Origin: an uncultured Opitutales bacterium
GTDB lineage: Bacteria > Verrucomicrobiota > Verrucomicrobiia > Opitutales > Intestinicryptomonadaceae
Reading direction: 5' to 3'
DNA length: 34,332 bases
Assembly (NCBI GenBank): GCA_944389195.1
Contig: CALXLM010000041.1
Coordinates: 1 to 34,332 of the forward strand
How positions within the stretch are numbered: position 1 is the first letter of the stretch; the number at the start of each line of letters is the position of its first letter. Positions 1-23,722 of the stretch are shown piece after piece. The notes beneath the pieces were generated by a model. The model was not told the DNA's origin. It worked only from the letters and a program-made list of their open reading frames with translations, and ran no database searches. A program made the position numbers and the translations under genes.

Positions 1-1989
1 AGAAGATTTGTCGGCCATACCTAGTTTTAAATACGCAACTGACAGGAAATACCATCCGCGAATAAAATACGCGTCGGCGCGCACCGCTTGGTCAAATAAA
101 GCCGCACTTTCCGCAAGCCTTCCCATCTCGCCCAAGAACAATCCGTAAAGATAATGCGCATGCGCGTTGCTCGGATCGCCATCGCACACCGATTTAAAAA
201 GGCTTTCGGAGCGCGGAAAATCACCCGCCCTAAAAAGCAATATCGCCGATTGAAGTTTTATTTCGGAATTTCCGGGCTCCATGCGCACGGCAGCTACCGC
301 GCTTTTTACCGCGTCATCTGCCCTTCCTTCGGAAAGCATGTATTCGCTCCTCTTTAACGCGCCTATTGGGGAATCGGCATTGAAATCGAGATATTCCATA
401 AGCTCCTCCGTGTTGCGCTTCTCCGTTTTAAAACGCAATCCGGCGTCAATCCTGACAAGGCGCGAAGCGTCGGAGGCAAACGCCCTTTTTATTCTATCAG
501 CATGCGGCAGAAATTCCGCCAGATGTACGCATGCGGCCCTCACGAGCGGATGGCCGCCAGCGTACTCTCTTTCCAAAATTTTCGGTATGTCCGCATCATC
601 CGCGTAGGCGGACAGCTGCTTTAAAATTATGCTTTTCCACGCCGGATTGTCTTCGGACTCCAACAGGTCCAGCAGGTCGTTCTTGTGACCCTCCGAAAGT
701 TGCCCCTCCTGCGACTTGTACAACGCCATCGCCCGCTTGCGCTTATGCAATAAACGCTTTGTCAGATGTCTTTTTTCAAAATTTTCCAAAAGCCATTCGA
801 AATTCCTTTCGGGTTTGCCTGCGTCGATTTTTTCGTGGCATTCCGAGCATGCGTTCGGAATGCCAAGCTCGAGGGTAAGGCGGAGATCGGGAGACGTAAG
901 CCCATGGTCGTATCTCCTGTCCCTTTGCATAAAAAACTTGGTCGGCATATGGCAATCCATGCATTGATCTCCACCGCGCGAATCGTGAAAAGTGTGTTTT
1001 TTAACGTTTATTGTCGGAGCCCCGCTCCTGTTTTTTGCTGAAACGTCGTGGCAAACCATGCAGAGTTTGTTATTTTCAATGGGAGCCGCCGTTTTAAGCG
1101 TGTGCGGATCATGGCAATCCGCGCATGTTATGCCCGCCGCATATTGCCTGCACATCATAAACGAACCGAACATGAAACTTTCAGACTTTACTTTTCCGTC
1201 CTGATAATACGCGGTTTTGTCGTCGGCCAGAACGGGCCTGAAATGGTCGAAATAGTTTTCCCCGACGCGGAATTTGTCGGCGCTAAGCTGTTCCCTTCTG
1301 CTGTGGCACTGCGCGCACGCGTACATAGCATCTTCCCTGGAGGGCCTCCTGTAATTTTTGTTGCCTCCCGCGCATTCCGCGGGCCTGTCCGAGTGGCATT
1401 GCACGCATCTTACTCCGTGTTCGATCCACGAACTTCGGTATAGGCCGTCCGAAATGTCGAAATTTTTTTTGAAGCCGGTCATGTGGCAATAAGCGCAGTT
1501 GGAGTTCCAAGTCATGCCCCCGCCGGACCAATGCCCCCAATCCCCTTTCAGCCTTTTTTCTCCTCCGAAAACGTCGAACAGCTCTCCCGACTCCGAGTCG
1601 ATGGCCGCAGGCAACACCTGGAATCTGCCGCTCCCGCAATCTACAACGGGCTGGCGCAGCGGAGTCTGTCCTATCGCCATTTTTACGGGAAACACGCCGG
1701 ATTTTCCGTTTTCAGATATTTCCACGTTTAAATTTGAACCGGCGTTTTTAAAAGCAAAAGACGATGACGAACACACAACAGGCGCCGGCGGCGCGAATTT
1801 GCCGGCGCTTCCGTCCGAAAGGTCCCCGTTTGCGTAAAAATGCTGCCTGCCCTTAGGCGACGACTTACACGAATCAAATATGTGCCTGTGGCATCCGGCG
1901 CATTCGCCGCAGCTATTTTCAGCGGCGCGCGCGCAAACACCCTTCCCGAAGAGCGCCGAACATGCGACTGCAAACAAAACGAGCCTCAT
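1..1989 (-). CDS. Octaheme c-type cytochrome with C-terminal TPR-like repeats (3' end cut by window)
   Basis: The frame is open from an ATG at 1989 to the window edge, 663 codons without a stop. The N-terminus is a short hydrophobic signal peptide ending near CARAA (residues 19-23), so the protein is exported. Eight CxxCH heme motifs begin at residues 30, 165, 195, 225, 289, 310, 343 and 381. The stretch LGIPNACSECH at the last heme is typical of a widespread family of multiheme cytochromes carrying HEAT/TPR-like repeats. After about residue 400 the sequence becomes helical, and from about 520 it reads as TPR-like pairs (for example HAHYLYGLFLGEMG, then ADAYFIRGWYFLSVAYLKLG). The start overlaps the stop of the upstream sulfatase as ATGA (1986-1989), so translation is coupled. 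Electron transfer in the periplasm is inferred from the hemes. The catalytic role, if any, is unknown. Confidence 0.93.
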   Translation of the reverse strand, partial: MRLVLFAVACSALFGKGVCARAAENSCGECAGCHRHIFDSCKSSPKGRQHFYANGDLSDGSAGKFAPPAPVVCSSSSFAFKNAGSNLNVEISENGKSGVFPVKMAIGQTPLRQPVVDCGSGRFQVLPAAIDSESGELFDVFGGEKRLKGDWGHWSGGGMTWNSNCAYCHMTGFKKNFDISDGLYRSSWIEHGVRCVQCHSDRPAECAGGNKNYRRPSREDAMYACAQCHSRREQLSADKFRVGENYFDHFRPVLADDKTAYYQDGKVKSESFMFGSFMMCRQYAAGITCADCHDPHTLKTAAPIENNKLCMVCHDVSAKNRSGAPTINVKKHTFHDSRGGDQCMDCHMPTKFFMQRDRRYDHGLTSPDLRLTLELGIPNACSECHEKIDAGKPERNFEWLLENFEKRHLTKRLLHKRKRAMALYKSQEGQLSEGHKNDLLDLLESEDNPAWKSIILKQLSAYADDADIPKILEREYAGGHPLVRAACVHLAEFLPHADRIKRAFASDASRLVRIDAGLRFKTEKRNTEELMEYLDFNADSPIGALKRSEYMLSEGRADDAVKSAVAAVRMEPGNSEIKLQSAILLFRAGDFPRSESLFKSVCDGDPSNAHAHYLYGLFLGEMGRLAESAALFDQAVRADAYFIRGWYFLSVAYLKLGMADKSS

Positions 1990-3809
1990 TTAACGCCGTC
2001 GATGTTCTTTTTTTCCAAAGCGGATATTTTTTCATCGTCGGCGCCGAGCAGAGACATCTCCCTTATTATAAAAGTCCTCAGCGCCCGCGACTGCAAGCCG
2101 TCATTAAAATCCAGCAACGACTCAAGCTTTTTTACGGCGGCTTCCCTTTCTCCAAGGTTATACGCGGATATAAGGCAGGCCATCGCCCTGTTGTATTCCT
2201 TGCGGTCCTTGGCGAGCTTTTCCACCTCTCCGCCGACATCGCGAAGCCCCATGTTTAACAGCCCCACCGCGCCCCAATACCTTACGAACGGATTGTCCGA
2301 AGACACCATTTTTCTTATTTTATCCTCGTCGCCATAGTCTCCCTCAGACGCCGTCCACGCCGCCTCGAAAGCCTCGCGGTAGCCGCACTCCTCAGTCCGG
2401 GCGTAATCGTACACAGTCGGATAATCCCTCAAAATCTCGTCGTATGCAAACTCAGGAATTATTCCCAAATCGAAAGCCTCAAGCATCGCCTTTTTAAGGC
2501 GCCGCTTCATATCTTCAAGCAGGAGTTTGCGTGACTCGTCGTGCGCCAGATTCTCCGTCTCGTCTAAGTCTGTTTCCGTGTCGTACAAAAAATGTGCCCC
2601 CTGCGGCTTCCACCAATAGGCGTATTTCGGCTCCAGCAGCATGTTGTCGAAAGCCCTTTTATAAGCGCGCCAACCTGCCTGTCCAAAAGGATATTTTGTG
2701 AATATCATCGGAGTTTTAAAAGCGAAAAAATTTCTTATATACCTTACCTTGCCGTCGGTTATCGCGCGGTTGAAATACGTGAAGCTGTCGAAGCGCGAAG
2801 CCGTAAGAAAAATGTCGGAGTCCTTTTGGGGAATATTCCTCCCAAGAAACGGCTTGCCTTGCATTTGTTCGGGCAGCCTAATTCCGGCAAGATTCAGAAT
2901 CGTAGGCGCCAAATCGGTAAAATCCACAACCCTGTCGGTTATGTCCCCAGTTCTGCCGAAAGGATTGAGGTACTTTAGCTTCTCGGGAATATAGACTATA
3001 AGGGGAACCTGCGTGCCGTCGTTGTTTAAATTGCGTTTCTGGCGGGCGAGAACGCCGCCGTGGTCGGAATAATAGAATATCACAGTGTTGTCCACCACAT
3101 CCTTCGGCTCTTTCATCAAGTCGGAAATTATCTCGCCAACCCTTTTATCCATCGCCTTCAGACAATCGTAATAAACCGCCATGTCGCTTTTTATTTCTGC
3201 AAGCGGCGGAAGATAGCCAGGCATTTCAAGCGAAGCCGGATCGTTTTCAGGCCTCTCAGGAATCAGATTCAGCTTGCGGTTTTTCTCTATCTTTTCAGTA
3301 AACAAATTGCTCTCGTGGGTAATCTCTATATTGAATACTGCCAAAAACGGAGTATCTTTTGACGGACGGTTTTTAAAGTGCGCTCCGGGCTTGCACTCGT
3401 CCCATATCGCCCTATCCTTCATCTTGATGTTGTAATCAGTTTTAAAGGCGTTCGTGCAATAATAGCCCGCCTCCCTAAAATACGCCGGATACGGCTTGAA
3501 CTTCGAAGGCACGGGATAACGCGAGCGCATGTTGTGCGCGCCGAGCGTTGCGGAATTGACGCCCGTTAAAATCGTGGTCCTCGCCACGGCGCAGACGGGG
3601 GCATTTGCGTATGCCTTCTTAAAAACTATCCCGTTTTCGGCAAGCCTGCTCAGATTGGGTGTTTGGCAATGGACGTCGCCGTACATCGGCATGTAGCGCG
3701 CGGAATTGTCTTCGCTTACAATCCACAATATGTTGGGCCGCGGCGGAGCTGAATGAACAGCGCAGTGGCAGCAGCATAAAACAAAAACTATCAGCCTATA
3801 ATATTTCAT
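1986..3809 (-). CDS. Secreted family S1 sulfatase with C-terminal HEAT-like domain
   Basis: This 607-residue protein begins with a signal peptide (about residues 1-21, ending VHSA). The sulfatase fold follows: metal-binding start NILWIVSEDNS (residues 26-36), the formylglycine site region PVCAVAR (71-77, Cys73), and FYYSDHGG in the middle, matching alkaline-phosphatase-superfamily metal ligands. It resembles the N-sulfoglucosamine sulfohydrolase-like branch of S1 sulfatases. The usual maturation motif is C-x-P/A-x-R; here it is C-A-V-A-R, so the proline is valine. After about residue 490 there is a helical extension (NPFVRYWGAVGLLNMG and following) that looks like HEAT repeats. The gene overlaps the upstream sulfatase by ATGA (3806-3809) and the downstream cytochrome by ATGA (1986-1989). 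The substrate, probably a sulfated glycan, cannot be read from the sequence. Confidence 0.93.
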   Translation of the reverse strand: MKYYRLIVFVLCCCHCAVHSAPPRPNILWIVSEDNSARYMPMYGDVHCQTPNLSRLAENGIVFKKAYANAPVCAVARTTILTGVNSATLGAHNMRSRYPVPSKFKPYPAYFREAGYYCTNAFKTDYNIKMKDRAIWDECKPGAHFKNRPSKDTPFLAVFNIEITHESNLFTEKIEKNRKLNLIPERPENDPASLEMPGYLPPLAEIKSDMAVYYDCLKAMDKRVGEIISDLMKEPKDVVDNTVIFYYSDHGGVLARQKRNLNNDGTQVPLIVYIPEKLKYLNPFGRTGDITDRVVDFTDLAPTILNLAGIRLPEQMQGKPFLGRNIPQKDSDIFLTASRFDSFTYFNRAITDGKVRYIRNFFAFKTPMIFTKYPFGQAGWRAYKRAFDNMLLEPKYAYWWKPQGAHFLYDTETDLDETENLAHDESRKLLLEDMKRRLKKAMLEAFDLGIIPEFAYDEILRDYPTVYDYARTEECGYREAFEAAWTASEGDYGDEDKIRKMVSSDNPFVRYWGAVGLLNMGLRDVGGEVEKLAKDRKEYNRAMACLISAYNLGEREAAVKKLESLLDFNDGLQSRALRTFIIREMSLLGADDEKISALEKKNIDGVK

Positions 3810-5461
3810 TCTTCCGAAGCGCCACTAACAGAATCGGTTAAATATTCCTTTTGAAGTTCCTCCCAACGCCTCACCATAAGCGATTTTCTCTCCGGATACC
3901 TCTCAGACAAGTTGAACTGCTCCGCGCGGTCATCGCTTAAATTAAAAAGCCTCCAAGTTTTGTTTTCCGCGGGTTCACGCGTGTTTGAATAAAGAATCTT
4001 CCAATCTCCCATGCGCAGGGCTTTGTTGCCCTCGTGCGAAAAGTATATAAAATCCCTATCCACATTCGAACCGCTTTTTATGTTTTCGGAAATGTCTTTT
4101 CCCGGAAATTTTGGCGCGCCTGAAGACGACCTGTCCTTTTTGATGCCAGCCATGGAAAGAATAGTCGGCATCAAATCTGTTATGTGGGCCGGCGTGCGGT
4201 TTATGGAGCCGGGATTTTTTAGATTGTTTCCCCAAGCGGCAATGAACGGAGTCGATACTCCGCCTTCGTGGGTCCAAACCTTATATTTTCTGAACGGCGT
4301 GTTCGATACGTTTCCCCATCCGGGGCCGAGACAAAGATACGAGCCCTTCGCACCGGGTTCGACGCCGGGATTGTGGTTGTCGCCCCTCACCATTATTTCG
4401 GCGCTCGCGCCGTTGTCGGACAGAAACATCACCACCGTATTGTCGAGCATGCCGAGTTCGTCGAGCTTTTTCAGAACGCGCCCTATTTCGATGTCCATTC
4501 GGTGCACCATCGCGGCATGTATTTCCATCTTTTTTGCCTGAAAGGCTCTTTGCCGAAGCGTCAACGCATTCCATTCGGGTATGTTGAAAACCTCATTGTC
4601 TCCGAACGAATCGACGGCCTTCTGTTTAAAGCGCAAATACGGCGGAGTGTTTCCCCTTTCGACCTTTGAAAGTCTCCAAGTTTCGGGGAAACCGAGCTTC
4701 ATTAGTTTTTCAAAACGCTTTGCCCGCGTCTTTTCCCAGCCCTGGTCGTACTTTCCCCTGTATTCGGCGATGTCAGAAGCGGACGCCTGCAGGGGAAAAT
4801 GCGGAACAATATATGCAAGATACGCAAAAAACGGCTTGTCCTTCCAGTTTGCCGCATGTTCCGATATGAACGACAGCATGTAATCAGTTATGGCAATTGT
4901 GGAATAATATTTTTGCCTGTCACCCACAGGCGGCAGCGGCACGTCGTCGAGATAATGGATTTTCGGATTAAAATTGCGGTCGTGGTCGTCTATCAAATAA
5001 GACCTGTCGAACCCCGCGTCGGCAATGGCCCTTTTTAACGGATATACATGCCATTTCCCCGAATGGTAGCTTTTGTAGCCCCCCTCCTTCAAGAGGTGCG
5101 CTATGGAACGCGCCCATCGGGGATATTTTTTCAAGTTGGGCTCAACCCCGAGCTGGGTGTGGTGGTATCCGCACATCAATGCCGATCTCGACGTCCAGCA
5201 GCGCGCCGTGTTGTAAAAGTCGGTATATCTCACTCCGCGCGAAGCCAGGCCGTCGAGGTTGGGTGTTTTTATTTCCCCGCCGTAGCAGCCCAAATCGGAA
5301 TATCCCAAATCGTCGGCAACTATGACCAAAAAATTGGGTTTTTCGGACTTTGCTCCCGCTGCGGCCGCAAACAAAGCAAAAACGGCAAAAATAAAACATT
5401 TTGCCGCTTCCGGCATAAAGCCGAAAATCCCGCACGCATTGCGTTCACCTATACGTTCCAT
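3806..5461 (-). CDS. Secreted family S1 arylsulfatase-like protein
   Basis: The first gene of the sulfatase-cytochrome operon encodes about 551 residues. Sulfatase hallmarks are NFLVIVADDLGYSDLGCYGG near the N-terminus, the second signature GYKSYHSGKWH, LSDNGAS, and THEGG with a following basic region. The formylglycine site reads C-W-T-S-R (bases 5186-5200), where C-x-P-S-R is expected, so threonine replaces proline. Three starts are possible: GTG 5464, ATG 5461 and ATG 5416. I chose 5461 because GGGGA lies 6 bases upstream. A start at 5416 would give the neatest signal peptide (MPEAAKCFIFAVFALFAAAAGA). Either way the protein has an export signal. It ends in a four-base overlap with the next sulfatase. 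Hydrolysis of sulfate esters on glycans is inferred from the family. Confidence 0.92.
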   Translation of the reverse strand: MERIGERNACGIFGFMPEAAKCFIFAVFALFAAAAGAKSEKPNFLVIVADDLGYSDLGCYGGEIKTPNLDGLASRGVRYTDFYNTARCWTSRSALMCGYHHTQLGVEPNLKKYPRWARSIAHLLKEGGYKSYHSGKWHVYPLKRAIADAGFDRSYLIDDHDRNFNPKIHYLDDVPLPPVGDRQKYYSTIAITDYMLSFISEHAANWKDKPFFAYLAYIVPHFPLQASASDIAEYRGKYDQGWEKTRAKRFEKLMKLGFPETWRLSKVERGNTPPYLRFKQKAVDSFGDNEVFNIPEWNALTLRQRAFQAKKMEIHAAMVHRMDIEIGRVLKKLDELGMLDNTVVMFLSDNGASAEIMVRGDNHNPGVEPGAKGSYLCLGPGWGNVSNTPFRKYKVWTHEGGVSTPFIAAWGNNLKNPGSINRTPAHITDLMPTILSMAGIKKDRSSSGAPKFPGKDISENIKSGSNVDRDFIYFSHEGNKALRMGDWKILYSNTREPAENKTWRLFNLSDDRAEQFNLSERYPERKSLMVRRWEELQKEYLTDSVSGASEE

Positions 5462-5537
5462 CACGCGTCCCCGAATAAAATATGCAACTGCTCAAAAATA
5501 CAGGCCGAAAAGCCGACCCAAACCGCTTTATATTTTT

Positions 5538-10978: not shown

Positions 10979-13900
10979 ATGAAGAATGCTTTTATTTCTA
11001 CCCCCAAAATTCAGAAGAAGCTTTCCCAAAAAAAAGCTTTCGCGCTCGTGTTGGCGTTGGCGCTGATGGGCTTTATGGTTCTATTGATTGTTACGCTGGC
11101 GACGATGGTTCAAATGCAGATGCGTCTGACCCGCCAGATAATGAACGATTTTAAAGCCAAGCAGGCCGCCAAGTTTGCGGCATACCAGGCGATGGGCCGC
11201 GTCCAGTCGGCTCTCGGTCCGGACCAGCGCATCACTGCGAACGCAATGATGTTTGATGACACCGTTGCATCGACAATTACGGATCTCGACAAGGACCCGA
11301 AGTACAACTGGTGGTCCACGCCGATGAATATCGACCGCGACGAAGCCGAAAGGATAGACGACGCTTCGATATCGCAAAACCGCTACTGGGTAGGCGTTTG
11401 GGACACCCGGCGCGGCTATACTCCCGACAAGATGAAAAGGGAGCAGGCCAGATCGGAATACATAACAAATACCGTGGAACGCGCCCTGACATGGCTCGTA
11501 TCCGGAAACCAAATCAGGCCGAAGGAGAGCACCGACTATTCTATCGTAAAGCACCTGCCGACCTCGAGGCTCGACGAGGGCAAATATATCCGCGCGGTAA
11601 GCGTCGGATCCTACGCGGACGAATACGGTGCGGCGCGCCCCGACAGGGACGTTCTCGCCCCGCTGGTGACTCTCGACGTCGATCCGAACCCAATAACGGG
11701 CGAAGTAATCTCCGACGGAAAGGAAACCCGCATAGCATGGTGGGTGGCCGACGAGGGCCAAAAAGCCTCCCTCAACGCTGTGGCATCGCGCGACATGTTC
11801 GAGCACGCCAACCGCATAGACTACCGCGTGCAAAGCCTTCCCTTCTATTCCGGAATCCACGGTTTGACCGTTCCCAACATGGGCGGCAAGGCGGGCACAA
11901 AGGCCTTTGACCTCGATTTCCAAGACGGCGACGACATTTCGTCTATGGCCCGCATAAGGAACCTTGACGACGTAAAGCAGCTTGATATTTTCCGCTCTGG
12001 AAACCTTCCGTCAAACACGCTTCTTTCAAGGCTGTTTTTCCACAGCGCGTCTTTTAACACGAAAGGAATTCTCGTAAACGTCAGGGACGGCGGCCTGAAG
12101 AAGGACCTTTCCCTCGGGCTTACGCGAAAGGATTTCTCTAACGAGGACGAGGAATTAAAAGACACCGACAACAACACGGGGCCGGAATATTTTGAAAGGC
12201 CCTACGGCGTGGCCGGCTACGACTTTAAGACGACGGCCTATCCGCTTTTAAAGGACAACGTATACCAGTACCACATCAATCCTAACAAGTCGAACGAGCC
12301 GAGCAGAAAGCTTGAAGGCGGCGGGCACATATTCGGTCCCCAGATGTACGGCCACGAAAACATAAGCGACGCCGAGCAGCTCTCGACCATTAGGCTGATG
12401 GGAGACATGTTCAGCGACGACTACATCTGGAAGGATCCGGGAGGCCCCCTGTGGGACCAGCTGCGCTCGTACTACAACACGCGCGTCGAGGACCTTGCGG
12501 AAAGGGACACCCACGACGCCCGCGTCCAGACAGACGACCGCTACGGTCTAAAGCCCGTCGTAAAGCGTTTCCAAGTCTTCTATGTCCCGACTTTCGTCAA
12601 CTACGGCGCGCAAAGGTACGGTCTGAGGCTGCACATAATGCCTCTCTTGATACTCTACAATCCGTACGACACAAAAATTAAAGGCGATACCTACTATGCC
12701 ATTCGCGTGTGGGGGCAGTTTAGGCATCCCACCGGAGCGTTTAGGTTTGCCATAGGATACGAAACGGGGCAATACTTCCAGTGCCTGCGCGACCTGCGTA
12801 CGGAAATGATGCCGTCGCTGAGCAGCAATATCACAAAATATCCGCCCGACCAGTTGCGCCTGCAGCAATTCATGGTTCCGTTTAGGCTCGGAGCGGTATG
12901 GAACTCGACAAAACAGACCGGCGGAAGCATTCTACATGTAAACAACAACAACCCGACAAGCAACAATGTTTACCCGATAAAATGGTTGATGTCGCGCTAT
13001 ACGGCTTACTTTGAAGGCTTCCGCTACGGAGGCTCCCAAGACGTTCCGGCGTTCCCGCTTGGATACGGCACGAGGCTCAGGGTGACATCGACACAGCAGA
13101 TAAAGGACGCGATAGCCCCGAGCAACCTCAACGTCACTGAGTCGCTAAAATGGAGGCATTGGAAACATATAGTCGCCGACAGCAACATCATTCCCGATAA
13201 GACCACGGCAATCACGGCCGCCACCACTGGCGGGCGCGACCGCTACTCGGCGCGAGTGGCGCGCATTCCGCTTTATCTCAACAGCATAATATATGCAGTC
13301 ACCCACGGTTCTTATTTTGAATCCATCAACAAGGGAAGCGCTTCGGACGACTATCTTTTATTCTTTGCCCAGAGGGCAATAGACGCGCGCAATCCGGAAA
13401 GCGCCTCGAAAATCTACGGCTCCTGCCCGAACGACGACGACGCCAACCTGCGCTTCATGGCATACGACTCCAAGGGCATAGACCCCGGCAAAGCTAAGAT
13501 ATTCTCGATGAAGAAAGTCATAAGCTATGTCGGCGACCCGACCAACAAGGGAAGCGCTTCGGACGCCGATAAGGACGGACCGAACGGCGTATTGGAAGAA
13601 TCCGCAACAAAAAGCCTTTACGAAGAGCGCGATGCCATGATGTACGGCCTCGACAACGGCGGAGTGCTTGGCGGATGCTTCTATGTTGACATACCGCACC
13701 CGGAATCGGAACACGCCGCAAAATACGCCAACGACATCGACTGGTATTACAACCAAAAATGGGGCAAATATGTGCTGTTCGACCTTCAGCAGATAGCGGA
13801 CTGCAACCTGAGGGACGTAAACGGAAGCTACATGGAAACGAATATAAACAACCTGTTTATAGACATGCAGGATATAGAGGGTGTGTATCCGCGAAAGGAG

Positions 13901-16792
13901 TTGCCGCAGGAAACCAACAACAAAATTCTCGGAGCGAGTTTCAACATGACCCCCCTCGGATATGCCATATCGGCATATAACCTCGACTATACGAGGCCAT
14001 CGGACGCTTCGTCGAATCCTCCGAATACCGATGCAAAGTATTGGAATCCGATACACAGGCACCAGCTTGAATATATAAGGTTGAACCTCGATATTTGGAT
14101 TTGGAAGCGCGAGGGCTTTGAATTTGCGAAATTCGCGAAGTCCGGAGCCAGAAACTACGGTTCCGACCATTTTTACACCACTCAAATTATGGGGCCGTCG
14201 CTTTTGCACATGCGCGGGTTCAGATTCTTCTGCTTCAAGCAGCCGAGTTTTCCTGATCCGTCGATAGGCGCATGGGGACAGAGCACGTCCTCGGGCGAAG
14301 CTGCGAACTACTACGTTTACACGAACTACCACTGCCCGGGCGAGGCGAGAATGGACAACGGAAGGTCTCTTTTCCTCGCTGCCTACCGCAACACCGAAAA
14401 CAGCAATTCCGCATATTATTACTCCACCGACGTGAATGATTCCAGCCAGTACACCGTTGACGGCGCACTGAAGAATCTGCTCGGATTCCAGTCAAAATTC
14501 AGTTCCGACCATTCGGAAAGCCAGCTGCTCGACGAAAACATATCGAGCCGGCAACAGCCCATACACCTAGCCCGCTTCTATCTGAATTGGCTGACGCTAA
14601 ACCCGAGAAGGCATTCGGCCAACTATTGGAAAAACCACGACAGCTGCAGAATGTACAATTCGACAAGCCAGTATATTCCGAGTGTCGATTCGACGGGAAT
14701 ATGCGTGGATACGGAAGGTTTGGGAGACACCCTGCCGCAAGCGATAAAGCATAACAGGGAACTGACTGTCACAAACGGAAACTACGGATATGCCTCACAA
14801 CTGTACGCGTCGATAAACAACACGACCGGGCGCGTGCCGTACGGCTTGGTGTTTGCCTTGCCCTACGCAAACGCCACTCCCGGGCACGAGCCGTTCTTTA
14901 ACGTGCGCCCGTTTGTCAACGCAAACATACAGGCAACGGGTTATTACAGCGACGGCGGCGGAAGAAGCATACCTATAAGCGGCGAAAAGAAATCGCTCTA
15001 CAACACGATATCGCGCCTGACAAAAACGGTGCAGTCGCTGAACCAGGCGTACGGGACAAAAGACGGCATGACATACGTCGGCAACACAATCACCGGAGAA
15101 TCCGACGGGCATGTTAGGATAGGATTGAAAGAGGAGCTGGGGACATACCAAGCACCGATAATCCACGCCCTAAGAAAAACGGAGGTTGTTTCAAATCCGG
15201 CAAACCTCGCGGGCGCGGGGTTGTCGTTCGGCGTTGGCAAAAACCAGGGAACCTCGTGGCTCGGGGAGGATACGTCAAGCTCGTACGCAAACCTTGTAAA
15301 CGGAGATGCTTTCCAGCGTTCATACGGCCTTCAGACTCCGGAATCGCAGACCCCCACGTTTGCGATAGGCAATTCGCTCTGTCCCTCGCGAATATCGCCC
15401 GAAAGAGCATACCACGTCATGTGGATAGACGCTGCAAGCGCAGTTTGGGACAGAAACAACGACAGCAACAACGCTTCAAGATCCGGAAAATTCGACGGCA
15501 CAAGAGAGGCGGCCTTCTACGAGGACAGAAGCGTCCTTTACGATATGTCGTGGCAGTTGAACGACGCTCTCTGGGACGAATACTACTTCTCGACGCTTCC
15601 GTACAGAAAAGACGAGGCCAAAGACACGCTCGACCCGGAGATCGCGTATCCGCAAAACCCGCGCATGCAATACTGCGTGGATCGCGAAGACTACCTTACA
15701 ATCAGGGATCTGACGTCCGACTCCAACAAGGAGCAGTTTGAGGAAAACGCCTCCAAAATGTGGGTAAACGGCGCATTTAACGTAAACTCCACAAGCGTTG
15801 ATGCGTGGAAGGCGGTTCTTTCCACCTACTACGGGCAGGAAATCCGCGACTACCAGGGGAAGTCGCTCAATCTCGAGCAGTCTGAATCGGCGGCGTTCCA
15901 CCGCTGGGCGGCGCCCTACTCGGCCAAAGATTTCACTTCGTCGTCGTCGATAACCGAGGAGGACACTGCATTCCAAGGCTTCAGAGCGCTTAACGCCGAA
16001 GAGATTGAAGAGCTCGCAGTGGCCATCGTTGAGCACATAAAAGACCGCGGGCCGTTCTATTCAATGTCGCACTTTGTCAACAGGGTGGTCGCCGACATGT
16101 CGGCCGAACAGCGCTACACGGAAAGTTATCTCGGCAACGCGCTCGTTCCGCTTCCCGAAAAGCAGGAAGACCGCAAGAACCTCGAGAAAGAGTACGACGA
16201 CGTAATCACATACCGCATTTCGCACGCGCAAAAGGGCGTGCTGCAGGCGGCGATAGACTCGACTTCGATAAACAGGCCGTTCCATACCGACGAAGACTTC
16301 ATAATTTCGATAGACAACAATCGAAACATGTCGGAGGCCCTGCAAAACGACACCAGCTGCAAAGACTACCAGAACGTCAAAAAAATCTGGGAAAACTGGC
16401 GCGGCGCAATCGGGCCCCAAGCCACCGGGGCGCCGGCGTACCTTATGCAGCAGGATTTGCTTTCCCGCCTGGGCTCGTTCCTGACGGTGCGTTCAGACAC
16501 GTTTAAAATCCGCGCATACGGGGAAGTCCGCAACCCGGTTTCGGGTTCGGTCGAAGGCAAGGCATGGTGCGAAATGGTTGTTCAGCGCCTGCCGGAATAT
16601 TTCGATTCAGAATCGCAAAACCAGGAAGCCTGGAGAATCAGCGGGCGCGAACACGAAATCGGCTACCAGGAAAAAGTCGACGACCAGAGAAACTTCAACA
16701 CGCACGTCGACGAGCTCAACGACTTGAACAAAGAGCTCGGAAGAAGGTTCAAAATCGTCTCTTTCCGTTGGCTGAACGAGAAGGAAATATAA
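10979..16792 (+). CDS. Very large pseudopilin-like protein, Verru_Chthon cassette protein A type
   Basis: The 1937-residue protein begins with a basic segment and one long hydrophobic helix (KKAFALVLALALMGFMVLLIVTLATM, about residues 18-43), as in PilX/GspK-like pseudopilins. A helical stretch follows (MQMRLTRQIMNDFKAKQAAKFAAYQAMGRVQSALG). Most of the rest is predicted to be extracytoplasmic, rich in Tyr, Asn, Asp and Ser. The C-terminus (SDTFKIRAYGEV, then AWCEMVVQRLPEYF) resembles the end of the Verru_Chthon cassette protein A family, which is described only from Verrucomicrobia and is normally found with companion proteins B, C and D. None of those companions is next to it. It is followed after 26 bases by a secreted protein in the same transcript. 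A surface filament or secretion role is inferred, not shown. Confidence 0.85.
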   Translation: MKNAFISTPKIQKKLSQKKAFALVLALALMGFMVLLIVTLATMVQMQMRLTRQIMNDFKAKQAAKFAAYQAMGRVQSALGPDQRITANAMMFDDTVASTITDLDKDPKYNWWSTPMNIDRDEAERIDDASISQNRYWVGVWDTRRGYTPDKMKREQARSEYITNTVERALTWLVSGNQIRPKESTDYSIVKHLPTSRLDEGKYIRAVSVGSYADEYGAARPDRDVLAPLVTLDVDPNPITGEVISDGKETRIAWWVADEGQKASLNAVASRDMFEHANRIDYRVQSLPFYSGIHGLTVPNMGGKAGTKAFDLDFQDGDDISSMARIRNLDDVKQLDIFRSGNLPSNTLLSRLFFHSASFNTKGILVNVRDGGLKKDLSLGLTRKDFSNEDEELKDTDNNTGPEYFERPYGVAGYDFKTTAYPLLKDNVYQYHINPNKSNEPSRKLEGGGHIFGPQMYGHENISDAEQLSTIRLMGDMFSDDYIWKDPGGPLWDQLRSYYNTRVEDLAERDTHDARVQTDDRYGLKPVVKRFQVFYVPTFVNYGAQRYGLRLHIMPLLILYNPYDTKIKGDTYYAIRVWGQFRHPTGAFRFAIGYETGQYFQCLRDLRTEMMPSLSSNITKYPPDQLRLQQFMVPFRLGAVWNSTKQTGGSILHVNNNNPTSNNVYPIKWLMSRYTAYFEGFRYGGSQDVPAFPLGYGTRLRVTSTQQIKDAIAPSNLNVTESLKWRHWKHIVADSNIIPDKTTAITAATTGGRDRYSARVARIPLYLNSIIYAVTHGSYFESINKGSASDDYLLFFAQRAIDARNPESASKIYGSCPNDDDANLRFMAYDSKGIDPGKAKIFSMKKVISYVGDPTNKGSASDADKDGPNGVLEESATKSLYEERDAMMYGLDNGGVLGGCFYVDIPHPESEHAAKYANDIDWYYNQKWGKYVLFDLQQIADCNLRDVNGSYMETNINNLFIDMQDIEGVYPRKELPQETNNKILGASFNMTPLGYAISAYNLDYTRPSDASSNPPNTDAKYWNPIHRHQLEYIRLNLDIWIWKREGFEFAKFAKSGARNYGSDHFYTTQIMGPSLLHMRGFRFFCFKQPSFPDPSIGAWGQSTSSGEAANYYVYTNYHCPGEARMDNGRSLFLAAYRNTENSNSAYYYSTDVNDSSQYTVDGALKNLLGFQSKFSSDHSESQLLDENISSRQQPIHLARFYLNWLTLNPRRHSANYWKNHDSCRMYNSTSQYIPSVDSTGICVDTEGLGDTLPQAIKHNRELTVTNGNYGYASQLYASINNTTGRVPYGLVFALPYANATPGHEPFFNVRPFVNANIQATGYYSDGGGRSIPISGEKKSLYNTISRLTKTVQSLNQAYGTKDGMTYVGNTITGESDGHVRIGLKEELGTYQAPIIHALRKTEVVSNPANLAGAGLSFGVGKNQGTSWLGEDTSSSYANLVNGDAFQRSYGLQTPESQTPTFAIGNSLCPSRISPERAYHVMWIDAASAVWDRNNDSNNASRSGKFDGTREAAFYEDRSVLYDMSWQLNDALWDEYYFSTLPYRKDEAKDTLDPEIAYPQNPRMQYCVDREDYLTIRDLTSDSNKEQFEENASKMWVNGAFNVNSTSVDAWKAVLSTYYGQEIRDYQGKSLNLEQSESAAFHRWAAPYSAKDFTSSSSITEEDTAFQGFRALNAEEIEELAVAIVEHIKDRGPFYSMSHFVNRVVADMSAEQRYTESYLGNALVPLPEKQEDRKNLEKEYDDVITYRISHAQKGVLQAAIDSTSINRPFHTDEDFIISIDNNRNMSEALQNDTSCKDYQNVKKIWENWRGAIGPQATGAPAYLMQQDLLSRLGSFLTVRSDTFKIRAYGEVRNPVSGSVEGKAWCEMVVQRLPEYFDSESQNQEAWRISGREHEIGYQEKVDDQRNFNTHVDELNDLNKELGRRFKIVSFRWLNEKEI

Positions 16793-17659: not shown

Positions 17660-17690
17660 AAAAAATCCGGCTTTGTAAGCCGGATTTTTT
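17660..17690 (+). terminator. Strong Rho-independent terminator
   Basis: AAAAAATCCGGCTT (17660-17673) pairs perfectly with AAGCCGGATTTTTT (17677-17690) around a three-base loop. It starts two bases after the stop of the secreted protein gene. The A and T runs make it usable in both directions. Confidence 0.95.
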
Positions 17691-17980: not shown

Positions 17981-20026
17981 ATGACATTCAATACTTTAAT
18001 GGACATTGTAGTATTTATAGCGTTCATTGCGGCCGTCGTTTTCGTCGGCCTGTATAAAAGCCGAGGGGAAAGCGGAAGCGAGGGCTACTTTCTCGCCGGG
18101 CGCGGACTGACATGGTGGCTGATCGGCATTTCGTTAATAGCGGCGAACATATCCACCGAACAGTTTGTGGGCATGAGCGGAAGCGCCGCGGGCATTTCCG
18201 GCCTGGCGATAGCAAGCTACGAATGGATGGCCGCAATAACCCTTGTGTTTGTGGCGTTCCTGTTCCTCCCGAAATTTTTAAAAAGCGGAATATATACCGT
18301 CCCCCAATTTCTCGAGTACAGATTCGACGCGCTGTCGAGATCGGTAATGTCGTTCATGATGGTCATAGTGCTCGTTTTGGTAAACGTCACCGCCGTGATA
18401 TATTCCGGAGCCACCGTCGCGGACACTGTTTTCGGACATTCTGCCGATTTGCCTTTTGCCATCGATCTTGAAATGGCATGCTGGGGAATAGGCATAATCG
18501 CCGCCGTTTACGTTTGCGCTGGGGGCCTTAAGGCATGCGCATGGGCCGACCTTCTCCAGGGAACGGCACTGATAGTTGGCGGAGCGCTCATAGCGTACTT
18601 TGCGTTTGCGGTGTTTGCCGGCAAACCAGCTGCCGAAATAGCGACAACCGCCGCTTTCACTCCGCAAGCGCTCGACTCCATTAAGGACGCCGGCTTTATA
18701 GAAAAATTCTTTTTCCTAAACTATGACAAGCTCACTATGTTCATGCCCGCCGACCACTCGGAAATTCCATGGACTGCCCTCATAATCGGACTTTGGATTC
18801 CGAATTTCTATTATTGGGGCTTCAACCAATACATCATACAGCGCACGCTTGGAGCGTCGAGCCTGGCTGAGGGGCAAAAAGGCATAATGCTTGCGGCCGG
18901 CTTAAAACTCATCATACCGTTTATTATCGTAATTCCCGGCATAATGGCCTTCAACCTTTATTCGGCGGACCAGGCGCAGGCGGCGCGCGCCGACAGAAAA
19001 ATCGCCACCGAAAATGCGAAGGCCTATTCGACGCTGTATTTCGACTGGCTCGATTCCACCAACCAAAAATACGACGCCAAAAAAGCCGTGTCCGAATTTT
19101 CATTCAGCCCCAAAAGCGGAGTGAAAGTCCCGCTGTTTACGGAATCAGAAATGGACGCCCTGCGCGGCGCCTACGAAAGCGCGAAAAAGGACGGCTCGCT
19201 ATACAAGACAAAGTTCGTTTACGACAATGGCTGGGCCAGCGCAAACGGCGCAGATTCAGCCTCCGGACCGAAGGCGCTTGTTGACGCGTGGAACAAAAAA
19301 TATGCCGCAAACTTCGATAAGCCCGACAGCGTAAAAAAGACCTTCTACGGATACAAATACGACTCGGCATTCGGCCTTTTGATAACGAAGGTCCTTCCGT
19401 CGGGATTCGGGCTTAAAGGCTTTATCTTTGCCTCGCTTCTCGGCGCCGTGGTAAGCTCGCTTGCCGCAATGCTGAACGCGGCGTCCACCATATTTACGAT
19501 AGACATATACAAAAAGTTTATAGCCAAAAACGCCAGCGACCGCAACCAGGTTCTCGTCGGGCGAATTGCGGTTCTGGTTTTCGCCGCCATCGGGTGCATG
19601 GTGGCCCCCGTTTTGGCAAATCCCAACCTTGGAACGATATTCGTCTATATACAGGAGTTCCAAGGCTTTCTCTCGCCCGGCATACTTGCCGTATTTGTAT
19701 TCGGAATGTTTTCCCGCAGGGCTCCGCGTTTCTCCGGGGCGCTCGGCATACTTACAAGCCCCGTTGTTTACGGATTCCTCAAACTGTTCTACGGCGACAT
19801 CGCGTTCCTCAACCGCATGGCGATAACGTTTGCATGTTCTATCGGCGTAATGGCCGTCCTCACGCTCGTAAAGCCGCTCAAACAGGACATCTCAATGCCG
19901 GAAAACACGTCGATAGACCTGTCGTCGTCGCGCAGCGCCAAGTATGCGGGAATAGCGATACTTGCCGCATGCGCCGTTCTGTACATCACCTTCTCCGGGT
20001 TGTTCTTCAAGGCCCCGCAAATCTGA
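17981..20026 (+). CDS. Sodium/sugar symporter of the SGLT type (SSS family), likely galactose
   Basis: The 681-residue integral membrane protein carries SSS family hallmarks: GYFLAGRGLTWWLIGISLIAANISTEQFVGMSGSA (about residues 35-68) and the later SLLGAVVSSLAAMLNAASTIFTIDIYK segment. These match the vSGLT/SGLT branch, which imports galactose or glucose with sodium. About 14 membrane helices are expected. An unusual hydrophilic stretch of about 130 residues (roughly 325-458) interrupts the membrane core; related transporters have a much shorter loop there. The galactokinase gene begins 15 bases downstream, and galE and a UDP-sugar pyrophosphorylase follow, so galactose or a related hexose is the likely substrate. 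Confidence 0.92.
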   Translation: MTFNTLMDIVVFIAFIAAVVFVGLYKSRGESGSEGYFLAGRGLTWWLIGISLIAANISTEQFVGMSGSAAGISGLAIASYEWMAAITLVFVAFLFLPKFLKSGIYTVPQFLEYRFDALSRSVMSFMMVIVLVLVNVTAVIYSGATVADTVFGHSADLPFAIDLEMACWGIGIIAAVYVCAGGLKACAWADLLQGTALIVGGALIAYFAFAVFAGKPAAEIATTAAFTPQALDSIKDAGFIEKFFFLNYDKLTMFMPADHSEIPWTALIIGLWIPNFYYWGFNQYIIQRTLGASSLAEGQKGIMLAAGLKLIIPFIIVIPGIMAFNLYSADQAQAARADRKIATENAKAYSTLYFDWLDSTNQKYDAKKAVSEFSFSPKSGVKVPLFTESEMDALRGAYESAKKDGSLYKTKFVYDNGWASANGADSASGPKALVDAWNKKYAANFDKPDSVKKTFYGYKYDSAFGLLITKVLPSGFGLKGFIFASLLGAVVSSLAAMLNAASTIFTIDIYKKFIAKNASDRNQVLVGRIAVLVFAAIGCMVAPVLANPNLGTIFVYIQEFQGFLSPGILAVFVFGMFSRRAPRFSGALGILTSPVVYGFLKLFYGDIAFLNRMAITFACSIGVMAVLTLVKPLKQDISMPENTSIDLSSSRSAKYAGIAILAACAVLYITFSGLFFKAPQI

Positions 20027-20041
20027 AACGCGCGCACCGAC

Positions 20042-21193
20042 ATGAAAGAATCGCTCGCAGCATCGTTTGAAAAAATATTCGGCCGCAAACCCGAAGTAAT
20101 GGCGCAGGCGCCAGGCAGAATAGAATTCATAGGAAACCACACAGACTACAATGGCGGATTGGTGATGGGAGTCGCCATCGACAAGGTCGTGATGGCGGCG
20201 CTCGCAAAACGCAACGACGGAAAGTTGTGCTTTGCCCGCGCAAAATACGGCGACAAGGTTTTTGTCGACGTTTCGGACTTAAAAAAACAGCCTAAAAACC
20301 TCAACTGGGTAAACTATCCGCTCGGGGTGTTCAAGTTTCTCGTCGAGTCAGGAATGGAGGCCGGCTGCGGTTTCGATATGCTCGACTGCAGCAATCTGCC
20401 GTCCGGGGCGGGTTTGAGCTCATCGGCGGCGATAGAGCTTTCAAGCGCGTTCGCCATGTCGAAACTTTACGGCTTTGAAACCGACCTTAAAAGCCTCGTA
20501 AAAATCGGCAAAAAATGCGAAAACGAATTTGTCGGAATGCCGTGCGGGATACTCGACCAGGGAGTGTCGGGATACGGCAAGAAAAACTCCATAGTTTACA
20601 TAGACTGCCTTGTCGAGGAGTTCGCAAATTACCCCCTTCCGCCCGACTGCCGATTCTGGCTTTTTAACTCTACAAAAAAGCACGCGCTCGTTGACGGGCT
20701 GTATGCGGCAAGGCACAACGAATGCATGGAGGCGGCGAAAATACTTTCAGGAAACGGCGAACAAAAGCCCCTTAGAAAATTCTCGATTGAGGATCTTGAG
20801 GCGGCGAAACATAAAATGCCCGACGTTGTTTACCGGCGTGCAAAACACGTGATAGAGGAAAACTCGCGCGTGGCGAAGGCAAAGGAACTATTGCTTTCCG
20901 GCGACATAAGCGGAGTCGGGAAACTTCTAAACGCGTCGCACGAAAGCTCGAGAAGGCTCTTCGAAAATTCGTGCGATGAACTCGATTTCCTTGTGGATAC
21001 CGTTTCTCCGATGAAAGGCGTTTACGGCGCGCGGTTAAGCGGCGGAGGTTTCGGCGGCGCGGTAATGGCGCTTACCGACGACACGTTCACGGAATCGGAC
21101 GCGGCGCGCGCGGCCGAAACATACGAAAAAAGATTCGGGCAAAAACCGGCCGTGTTCGCGTGCGCATCGGGAGACGGCGCAAAGCTCGTTTAA
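20042..21193 (+). CDS. galK: Galactokinase (GHMP family)
   Basis: The 383-residue protein has the three GHMP kinase motifs: GRIEFIGNHTDYNGG (residues 25-39), LPSGAGLSSSAA (119-130) and GARLSGGGFGG (329-339). The catalytic Asp is in CGILDQ (Asp172). It should phosphorylate C1 of galactose with ATP. The first motif has GNH where most galactokinases have GEH: Asn32 replaces the Glu that contacts the sugar. This may be lineage variation or may mark a different hexose substrate. ATG 20042 follows the symporter stop by 15 bases. The product feeds the galE and pyrophosphorylase genes downstream. Confidence 0.93.
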   Translation: MKESLAASFEKIFGRKPEVMAQAPGRIEFIGNHTDYNGGLVMGVAIDKVVMAALAKRNDGKLCFARAKYGDKVFVDVSDLKKQPKNLNWVNYPLGVFKFLVESGMEAGCGFDMLDCSNLPSGAGLSSSAAIELSSAFAMSKLYGFETDLKSLVKIGKKCENEFVGMPCGILDQGVSGYGKKNSIVYIDCLVEEFANYPLPPDCRFWLFNSTKKHALVDGLYAARHNECMEAAKILSGNGEQKPLRKFSIEDLEAAKHKMPDVVYRRAKHVIEENSRVAKAKELLLSGDISGVGKLLNASHESSRRLFENSCDELDFLVDTVSPMKGVYGARLSGGGFGGAVMALTDDTFTESDAARAAETYEKRFGQKPAVFACASGDGAKLV

Positions 21194-21296
21194 TCGCCAA
21201 GCCGCGGCGTTTTGCATGCGGGTTTTGGGTATTGTCCGAAAATCGGCAAAATGGCGCATTCATACCACACACATTTCCAACATAAGAATAAAAAAT

Positions 21297-22289
21297 ATGA
21301 ACGTATTGGTAATAGGCGGCGCAGGATACATAGGAAGCCACTGCGTAAGACAACTGATAGAAGCCGGGCACAGGCCCGTGGTTCTCGACAACCTCGTTTA
21401 CGGGCACAAAGGGGCTCTCATGCCCTCCGTAAAATTCTACCGCGGAAACCTCGAAGACAAAAAAACCGTGGGGGAAATTCTCGATGCCGAAAAAATAGAC
21501 ATAGTAATGCACTTTGCGGCGTTCATAAACGTCGGGGAGTCGGTATCAAATCCGCTTAAGTATTACTACAACAACCTATCGGGGGTAATATCGCTCGTTG
21601 ACGCCATGTTGGAGCACGGCGTAAAAAAATTCGTCTTTTCTTCGACCTGCGCGACTTTCGGAATTCCGCAAAAGCTTCCGCTTACAGAAGACCACCCCCA
21701 GCTTCCCATAAACCCGTACGGGCAGACAAAACTCGATGTGGAAAACTTTTTAAAGGCGTGCGCGCGCGCTTACGGGCTAAGCTTTGTGGCGCTGCGCTAC
21801 TTCAACGCCTCGGGCGCCGCCGAGGACGGTTCCATAGGCGAAGACCACACACCCGAGACCCACATAATACCGCTTACGATATATGCCGCCATGGGGAAAC
21901 GCCCGGCAATAAGCGTCTTCGGGACAGACTACAACACCCCCGACGGAACATGCCTGCGCGACTATGTGCATGTTGACGACCTCTGCCGCGCGCACATTGC
22001 GGCATTCAAAAATTTGGAAACGCCCGGCAGCTGTTCCTTCTACAATCTCGGCACGGGAACTCCGAACTCGGTTCTCGAGATAATAAGGGGGGTTGAGGAA
22101 GTGACAAAAATGAAAGTTCCCGTAGAATACGGCCCAAGGCGGCCCGGGGATCCCGACGCGCTCTACGCGAACTCAGAAAAGGCGAAATCGGAACTCGGCT
22201 GGAAAATAAAATTCAACGACGTGCGCTCTATCATAGAAACAGCGTGGAGATGGCACAAAAACAATCCCGACGGATTTCCGAAAGACTAA
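21297..22289 (+). CDS. galE: UDP-glucose 4-epimerase
   Basis: The 330-residue short-chain dehydrogenase-type enzyme has GGAGYIG (residues 7-13) for NAD binding, SSTCATFG (115-122) and the YxxxK pair Tyr141/Lys145. It interconverts UDP-glucose and UDP-galactose. The position equivalent to the E. coli gatekeeper Tyr299 appears to be Leu289 in RRPGDPDALYAN. Less bulky residues there are often linked to acceptance of N-acetylated UDP-sugars too. The frame extends upstream, but ATG 21297 gives the conserved MNVLVIGGAG start. A gap of 103 bases after galK leaves room for a second promoter. The pyrophosphorylase gene starts 5 bases after its stop. Confidence 0.95.
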   Translation: MNVLVIGGAGYIGSHCVRQLIEAGHRPVVLDNLVYGHKGALMPSVKFYRGNLEDKKTVGEILDAEKIDIVMHFAAFINVGESVSNPLKYYYNNLSGVISLVDAMLEHGVKKFVFSSTCATFGIPQKLPLTEDHPQLPINPYGQTKLDVENFLKACARAYGLSFVALRYFNASGAAEDGSIGEDHTPETHIIPLTIYAAMGKRPAISVFGTDYNTPDGTCLRDYVHVDDLCRAHIAAFKNLETPGSCSFYNLGTGTPNSVLEIIRGVEEVTKMKVPVEYGPRRPGDPDALYANSEKAKSELGWKIKFNDVRSIIETAWRWHKNNPDGFPKD

Positions 22290-22294
22290 CGGAC

Positions 22295-23722
22295 ATGAAC
22301 CCAGAAGATTTAAAGCAAAAATTTGAAAGCGCCGGACAGGGGCATGTGTTCGAATTTTTCGAAACGCTGACGGACTCGGGAAAATCCGACCTGCTCGGCC
22401 AGCTCGAGCAGGTGGATTTGAGCGAGTTGAAGGCCCTTAACGACGAGCTCGTATTTTCCGGCGGGAAACGCGACGACATCGATTTTTCGAAACTAACGCC
22501 CGCCCCCTATAAGCCGCTGCCGGCCGACAAAATTTCCGACGCCGAATGGAGCAGCGCAAAGCGCGCCGGCGAAGAAGCCATAAAGGCCGGCCGCATTGCG
22601 GCCTTCGTAGTGGCGGGAGGCCAGGGAACGCGACTCGGCTTCAACGCCCCGAAAGGGCTTTACAAGGTGACGCCCGTAAAGCACAAGAGCCTTTTCCAGG
22701 TGTTTGCCGAAAAGATACTGTCGGCTTCGCGCAAATACGGAGTGGGCATACCGTGGCTGATAATGACAAGCCATATCAACGACGCGGCCACGCGCTCGTT
22801 TTTTGCGGAAAACGGATTTTTCGGACTGAATCCGGACGACGTTATTTTCTTCAAACAGGGGCTTATGCCCGCGGTTGACGCCTCCGGGAAAATCATAATG
22901 GAAAGCAAATCCAAAATCGCCATGACCCCCGACGGGCACGGAGGCTGCCTGCGCGCAATGTGTCGCAGCGGGGCAATCGGCGAGCTTAAAAAACGCGGGA
23001 TAGACTGCATCAGCTATTTCCAAGTGGACAATCCGCTCGTAAACATAATCGATCCGTATTTTATCGGTTTCCACATACTCGGCGGCTCGGAGATGTCGTC
23101 AAAGATGATTCCCAAAGCCTACGAGCTTGAGAAAGTCGGCCATTTCTGCCTGTTGGACGGCAAAACGTGCGTTGTCGAATATTCCGACCTCCCGCAGGAA
23201 TACCAAAAAATGCGCGACGAAAACGGAAAACTCAAATTTGTATCCGGAAGCGTGGCCATACACGTCCTCGACAGGGACTTTGTCGAAAGGCTTGGCGGAA
23301 ACGCAAGCGGATCCGCAAAACTGCCGTTCCACCGCGCCGACAAGAAGATTCCGCACATAGGCAAAAACGGCGAAAAAATAACTCCCGACAAACCTAACGG
23401 GATAAAGTTCGAAATGTTTGTATTCGACGCACTGCCGCTGGCGAAATCCCCCGTAATCATAGAGGGGTTTAGGGGAGATGAATTTTCTCCCGTAAAAAAC
23501 GCCGAGGGAGTGGACTCTCCGCTGACATGCAAGAACCACCAAAAGCAGCAAGCTGCAAGGTGGCTGGCAAAAGTCGGATGCGCGACTATGGCGGATTCGG
23601 AAAACGTACCCGTATTCGATATGGAAATTTCGCCGCTGTTCGCCTCCAACGAGGAGGATTTTGTCATTAACTGGAACGCCCTTCCCCAAAAGCCGGAAAT
23701 AACCGACGGTTTTTACATATAG
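22295..23722 (+). CDS. UDP-sugar pyrophosphorylase of the AGX/UAP1 type (UDPGP family)
   Basis: The 475-residue protein has the nucleotide-binding loop VVAGGQGTRLG (about residues 105-115) and closely follows the eukaryotic UDP-N-acetylhexosamine pyrophosphorylase pattern: PWLIMTSHIN, VIFFKQGLMPA, IAMTPDGHGG, FQVDNPLV, KPNGIKFEMFVFDALPLA and DEFSPVKNAEG. It couples UTP and a sugar-1-phosphate to give a UDP-sugar and pyrophosphate. Relatives use GlcNAc-1-P, GalNAc-1-P, Glc-1-P or Gal-1-P. ATG 22295 has GGA four bases upstream and lies 5 bases after galE. Its presence with galK and galE, and no galT, suggests it may act on the product of GalK. The exact substrate cannot be read from the sequence. 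Confidence 0.9.
   Translation: MNPEDLKQKFESAGQGHVFEFFETLTDSGKSDLLGQLEQVDLSELKALNDELVFSGGKRDDIDFSKLTPAPYKPLPADKISDAEWSSAKRAGEEAIKAGRIAAFVVAGGQGTRLGFNAPKGLYKVTPVKHKSLFQVFAEKILSASRKYGVGIPWLIMTSHINDAATRSFFAENGFFGLNPDDVIFFKQGLMPAVDASGKIIMESKSKIAMTPDGHGGCLRAMCRSGAIGELKKRGIDCISYFQVDNPLVNIIDPYFIGFHILGGSEMSSKMIPKAYELEKVGHFCLLDGKTCVVEYSDLPQEYQKMRDENGKLKFVSGSVAIHVLDRDFVERLGGNASGSAKLPFHRADKKIPHIGKNGEKITPDKPNGIKFEMFVFDALPLAKSPVIIEGFRGDEFSPVKNAEGVDSPLTCKNHQKQQAARWLAKVGCATMADSENVPVFDMEISPLFASNEEDFVINWNALPQKPEITDGFYI

Follow-up and report, generated by a model that had tools for sequence, protein, structure and literature searches.

A possible galT-independent galactose route with a UAP1/AGX-scaffold pyrophosphorylase in an uncultured Opitutales bacterium

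The stretch of DNA analysed here (the window) is a contig of 34,332 nucleotides (CALXLM010000041.1, contig C41) from the 2.37 Mb assembly GCA_944389195.1 of an uncultured gut bacterium of the Opitutales, Verrucomicrobiota (genome G000, 96.3% complete). Between positions 17981 and 23722 its forward strand carries a cassette of four genes, encoding a Na+/sugar symporter, a galactokinase (GalK), a UDP-glucose 4-epimerase (GalE) and a protein resembling the UDP-N-acetylhexosamine pyrophosphorylase UAP1/AGX of eukaryotes (here the UAP-like enzyme), which we discuss as a possible route of galactose use without galT. The gaps between the genes are 15, 103 and 5 bases, and we infer that the four are co-transcribed. 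The start of the UAP-like gene was taken as the ATG listed in Table 1, instead of the mechanically called GTG at 22244. A terminator-like hairpin with a T run lies upstream and would close the preceding gene and separate the cassette from it, while the consensus scan for promoters and terminators gave no excess over chance.

Table 1. Coordinates of the cassette genes, of the pocket codons in the UAP-like gene and of two further features; positions refer to the window unless another contig is named.
Feature	Position	Strand	Basis
Terminator-like hairpin AATCCGGCTT-TGT-AAGCCGGATT and T run	17664..17690	+	direct reading of the sequence; absent from the consensus-scan list
Na+/sugar symporter, SSF family, vSGLT-like, 681 aa	17981..20026	+	family profiles, closest solved relative
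Galactokinase GalK, GALK1-like, 383 aa	20042..21193	+	profile and structure-database comparison
UDP-glucose 4-epimerase GalE, 330 aa	21297..22289	+	profile search
Putative UDP-sugar pyrophosphorylase on UAP1/AGX scaffold, 475 aa	22295..23722	+	profile, structure comparison, residue reading
His215 codon (CAC), place of AGX1 Asn223 (N-acetyl contact); His in UGP and USP	22937..22939	+	alignment
Gln243 codon, place of AGX1 Cys251; Gln in USP (FFQDTN)	23021..23023	+	alignment
Lys280-Val281-Gly282, C4-side loop (AGX1 Pro288-Val289-Gly290; Gly kept)	23132..23140	+	alignment
Ser319 codon, place of AGX1 Asn327	23249..23251	+	alignment
3PNN-like nucleotidyltransferase, 285 aa (L098/L124)	G000 contig C48, 98434-99288	minus	3PNN is the only close solved relative

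A first, sequence-only reading had placed these four genes together, and all of them could be assigned firmly to families by profiles above cut-off or by solved relatives. The symporter matches the SSF family and exceeds the NCBIfam cut-off for solute:sodium symporters. Its closest solved relative is the Vibrio SGLT (vSGLT; E 5e-99), of which the sugar-site motifs EQFVGMSG, ASYEWM, PNFYYWGFNQ, LKLIIP and YIQEFQG are retained. GalK scored 286.6 bits against the gal_kin cut-off of 226.65 and is not of the GALK2 type, as it matches GALK1 at E 2e-60 and the N-acetylgalactosamine (GalNAc) kinase GALK2 at E 1e-28. The galactose-site residues of GALK1 are retained except for Glu43, which is Asn (IGNHTDY); Asn stands at this galactose-binding position in nearly all Opitutales galactokinases (loci L045-L074). 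By their matches and motifs, both symporter and kinase look galactose-type. GalE scored 417 bits against a cut-off of 262, and the position of its gate is occupied by Leu (motif DPDALYAN) instead of the Tyr of E. coli, so that N-acetyl sugars may be admitted. Such a gate would fit salvage of GalNAc, one of the two options of the sequence-only reading. As in animals, a GalNAc kinase, a UAP1 making UDP-GalNAc and a GalE also epimerising N-acetyl sugars would then act together; human AGX1 does use GalNAc 1-phosphate (GalNAc-1-P; PMC3888555). However, a GALK1-like kinase and a vSGLT-like symporter with the hexose-site motifs are not what this option predicts.

The genome-wide search for galT, which the sequence-only reading had called for, bore out the absence of the gene: PF01087 gave no match in the whole genome, and the same search was positive in six controls, including E. 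coli and B. subtilis. GalK and GalE are common to this genome and to the Leloir pathway (galK, galT, galE), but galT, which defines the latter, is lacking here. The gene content is that of an Isselbacher-type route, i.e., galactokinase and UDP-glucose 4-epimerase without galT. The same searches were run on 54 Opitutales genomes (G000-G053), of which G010 yields nothing in any search and was left out of the loss counts. Two of the 54 carry galT (G029 and G041), none of them from the family of the window, and among 141 genomes of a class-wide sample PF01087 was matched in 57, just two of them Opitutales. galK is kept in 36 of the 54 genomes, 34 of which are without galT. Since galT is rare across the order while galK is kept, this is an order-level trait, not a peculiarity of the window genome. 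The UAP-like gene is present in 50 of the 54 genomes, and in G000 it is the only member of PF01704. It accompanies galK in 33 of the 34 genomes that have galK but no galT, a co-occurrence which says little alone because the UAP-like gene is nearly universal. GalU is absent from the window genome and was found in full length in three genomes of the order (G022, G038 and G041).

The UAP-like protein matched the UDPGP profile PF01704 with 124 bits (cut-off 22), and among solved structures it comes closest to AGX of mouse and human and to UAP1 of Aspergillus, with E values down to 1e-86. Its predicted fold, with a mean predicted local distance difference test score (pLDDT) of 90.9, gave a Z value of 43 with structures of UAP1; the value was about 32 with UDP-glucose pyrophosphorylase (UGP) and 30 with the UDP-sugar pyrophosphorylase (USP) of Leishmania. 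Both sequence and predicted fold indicate that the enzyme belongs to the UAP1/AGX scaffold; it falls outside the USP clade, with USP at E ~1e-16 and UAP1 at 1e-86. The UTP-site and catalytic residues of AGX1, R115, K122, Q196, D253, E303, Y304, K377 and K407, are all retained. A residue survey, like the count of mutase neighbours below, was made on named loci comprising the best 80 UAP-like relatives, nearly all Verrucomicrobiota, found with search patterns which may favour this subfamily. K122, Q196, D253, Y304 and K407 are retained in all 80. The nearest named relatives among them are metagenome-assembled genomes labelled as Opitutales or Verrucomicrobiota bacterium; yak cecum was the source of one of these.

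The sugar pocket, as read from the alignment, is not UAP1-like. Asn223 and Asn327, which have roles in hexosamine contact (PMC3888555, PMC8386105) and whose equivalents in AfUAP1 bind N-acetylglucosamine 1-phosphate (GlcNAc-1-P; PMC8386105), are common to animal, fungal and plant UAPs, but in the window enzyme the pair is replaced by His and Ser. Further differences from AGX1 are Gln for Cys251 and Lys for Pro288. The His at position 223 was found in 47 of 48 enzymes of the order; across the 80 named loci and the window it is present in 81 of 81, as is the Gln at 251, while the Lys at 288 is fixed and the Ser at 327 is lost once. In the solved sequences of the Protein Data Bank (PDB), UGP and USP both have the motif GHGD, and USP has FFQDTN or FIQDTN. 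The window enzyme thus holds both USP-type residues, the His at the N-acetyl place and the Gln of the FFQDTN motif. The His fills the N-acetyl place and has been proposed to block GlcNAc-1-P in human UGPase (PMC5609113). The C4-side glycine (AGX1 G290), common to USPase and UAGPase (PMC5609113), is retained. From the His, the Gln and the glycine together, we would predict a sugar with a C2 hydroxyl and either epimer at C4, that is, glucose 1-phosphate (Glc-1-P) and galactose 1-phosphate (Gal-1-P). The same His is expected to clash with an N-acetyl group (PMC5609113), and because of this and of a kinase far nearer GALK1 than GALK2, GalNAc salvage is disfavoured and appears very improbable. Of the two options of the sequence-only reading, it is the Isselbacher-type one that is favoured, by the lack of galT and GalU, the galactose-type symporter and kinase and the UGP/USP-type His. 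A tie between Ser at AGX1 position 327 and galK, suggested by Ser in all galK-bearing, galT-less genomes in which the UAP was read, came down to one independent pair on the tree (sign test p = 1) and was not used as evidence.

Gene neighbourhoods were compared across the order. The family of the window has 18 genomes that could be read for this purpose. In 15 of them galE and the UAP-like gene adjoin, and in 13 galK, galE and the UAP-like gene stand together; G017 could not be judged for gene order. Such an arrangement is not there by chance. Outside the family the UAP-like gene does not adjoin galK. There, a phosphohexomutase gene lies directly 3' of it in 47 of the 72 named loci with enough downstream sequence. 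Loci with this neighbour are L094, L105, L109 and most of L165-L234. The mutase is a protein of roughly 600 aa that scored above no NCBIfam cut-off, and its loop reads GGEESYG in the loci where the pattern matched. We take this loop as typical of phosphoglucomutases (PGM2/PgcA) rather than of GlmM (GEQSGH) or AGM1. The UAP-like gene thus travels with a maker of sugar 1-phosphate, which is galactokinase in the family of the window and a mutase in most others. Three Opitutaceae-like loci (L192, L199 and L208) have galK about 3 kb past the pair of UAP-like and mutase genes, with other genes between, a linkage too loose to be counted.

Taken as a whole, the cassette may represent a galT-independent, Isselbacher-type galactose route in which the UAP-like enzyme transfers uridylyl to both Gal-1-P and Glc-1-P, a reading to which we give a probability of about 0.5. 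Galactose would be taken up by Na+ symport and phosphorylated by GalK, and the Gal-1-P would be converted with UTP to UDP-galactose and pyrophosphate (PPi) by the UAP1-scaffold enzyme, a use of Gal-1-P that is predicted from residues and gene linkage. GalE would then turn UDP-galactose into UDP-glucose, which could serve glycan synthesis; alternatively, the UAP1-scaffold enzyme could cleave it again with PPi and so yield Glc-1-P for glycolysis or glycogen, glgC being present in the genome. The substrate of each protein and the direction of flux are likewise predictions. The pyrophosphorylase itself would be a derivative of UAP1, whose pocket the N-acetyl-contact His switched from N-acetylhexosamine to hexose while the epimer-tolerant C4 site was retained. 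Most of the order would use this enzyme as its UDP-glucose pyrophosphorylase, supplied by the adjoining phosphohexomutase.

A galT-less route of Isselbacher type is known mainly from plants and Leishmania. The present case resembles the route of plants and trypanosomatids in that galactokinase and GalE are present, galT is absent and a candidate pyrophosphorylase lies in the same cluster; it differs in being bacterial and in the UAP1 scaffold, with a predicted pyrophosphorylase step. The literature searched gave no bacterial precedent apart from a mention of USPase in a few bacterial species. With the USP of plants and Leishmania the window enzyme shares the His at the N-acetyl place, the Gln of FFQDTN, the glycine near the sugar C4 and the expected pathway of galactokinase, pyrophosphorylase and epimerase without galT, but it comes from another clade of PF01704 and has 475 aa where USP has about 600. 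UAP1/AGX1 is alike in clade, fold and UTP-site and catalytic residues; unlike UAP1, however, the window-type gene adjoins galK and galE or a phosphohexomutase. Bacterial pairs of phosphoglucomutase and UDP-glucose pyrophosphorylase exist, e.g., pgcA and gtaB. The order of UAP-like gene and phosphohexomutase with its EESYG loop in most Opitutales recalls such pairs, although the scaffold here is UAP1, not GalU/GtaB, and the family of the window has no mutase neighbour.

In a second explanation, the UAP-like enzyme would be a UDP-glucose pyrophosphorylase that accepts no sugar phosphate but Glc-1-P, with GalK and GalE serving separate ends and Gal-1-P handled by another enzyme or little used. 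It would agree with the 51 of 54 genomes that are without full-length GalU, with the glucose-type loop of the neighbouring mutase and with His223 as in UGP. Yet it does not account for the linkage of the gene to galK and galE in the family of the window, its C4-side glycine is of the kind found in enzymes tolerating both C4 epimers, and without galT it would leave Gal-1-P with no outlet. We regard strictness for Glc-1-P as quite unlikely.

A number of observations weigh against the galT-independent reading. The scaffold is that of UAP1 (Z 43, with ~30 for USP), whose characterised members prefer N-acetylhexosamine 1-phosphates, and the enzyme keeps both Phe residues of the acyl pocket, F381 and F383. 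UAGPase2 of Arabidopsis is a UAP that accepts Glc-1-P but not Gal-1-P, with Asn at 223 (PMC3888555, PMC5609113). Within the family, G006 and G018 have the symporter and galK genes away from the UAP-like gene, and in G015 the latter does not adjoin galE; the substrate of the mutase is judged, on general knowledge, from its loop. Finally, GlmU was over the curated cut-off in none of the 54 Opitutales genomes, and the UAP-like enzyme may therefore be needed for UDP-GlcNAc. The main rival is a housekeeping UDP-GlcNAc pyrophosphorylase that replaces the uridyltransferase half of GlmU and is merely clustered with galE and galK, Gal-1-P being used by another enzyme, e.g., the 3PNN-like nucleotidyltransferase. 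UAP1 clade and fold, the acyl-pocket Phe, the lack of GlmU and the retention of the UAP-like gene in genomes of 0.9 Mb without galK are all in line with it. Against it stand the change of Asn223 to His throughout the order and a mutase loop of neither GlmM nor AGM1 type. Moreover, the nearly complete genomes G021 and G036 are without the UAP-like gene but have a 3PNN-like one. On balance we find a housekeeping role of this kind unlikely.

The proteins of G000 matching PF00483 or PF12804 are GlgC, ManC, a CBS-domain protein, KdsB, IspD and one 3PNN-like protein of 285 aa. A GlmU hidden among the PF12804 matches was considered and rejected, these being the proteins just listed without GlgC. The 3PNN-like gene, whose product is close only to the unassigned structure 3PNN, occurs as a single copy in 50 of the 54 genomes, with genomes of 0.9 Mb among them. 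Because G021 and G036 keep it without a UAP-like gene, the 3PNN-like protein is a candidate essential supplier of UDP-GlcNAc, and we consider it a fair candidate for this role in an order without GlmU. In 20 loci no AmgK-like gene or other neighbour conserved across the order marked it as MurU. The protein could also itself use Gal-1-P, and as an alternative of unassigned role it counts among the points against a Gal-1-P-using UAP-like enzyme.

Two loci of the same genome carry other nucleotidyltransferases. In L076 (contig C48, ~81500-84200) a NeuC-like gene, the CBS-domain nucleotidyltransferase gene and a PseF/NeuA-like gene stand side by side, probably as a locus for nonulosonic (legionaminic-type) acid; the arrangement of the nucleotidyltransferase is PtmE-like. 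In L119 (contig C26, ~144400-145400) KdsB carries an N-terminal extension of about 105 residues that contains hydrophobic segments, and its gene adjoins one for a KpsF/GutQ-like isomerase. Elsewhere in the window, the protein encoded at 10979-16792 has 1937 aa and a hydrophobic, pilin-like N-terminus; a secreted protein of 279 aa follows it, and neither has a Pfam or NCBIfam match. Two adjoining sulfatase genes (PF00884) at 1986-5464 on the minus strand may indicate the use of sulfated glycans. They are the sole hint in the window at the tie to host or algal glycans which the sequence-only reading had suggested, and such a tie is a guess.

To return to the galT-independent reading, its extension to the order would be that a fixed replacement of Asn by His at the N-acetyl contact adapted the UAP1/AGX scaffold to work as a hexose-1-phosphate uridylyltransferase replacing both GalU and GalT, that galactose takes an Isselbacher-type route and that the 3PNN-like protein makes UDP-GlcNAc in place of GlmU. 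This wider picture is possible, and we put it forward tentatively. If true, it would raise the question of how Opitutales produce UDP-GlcNAc without GlmU, and the annotation of the UAP-like enzyme, which would be labelled a UDP-N-acetylhexosamine pyrophosphorylase, would be corrected. Most of a bacterial order would then use galactose without galT, by means of an enzyme whose UAP specificity would have changed in nature through a single known residue.

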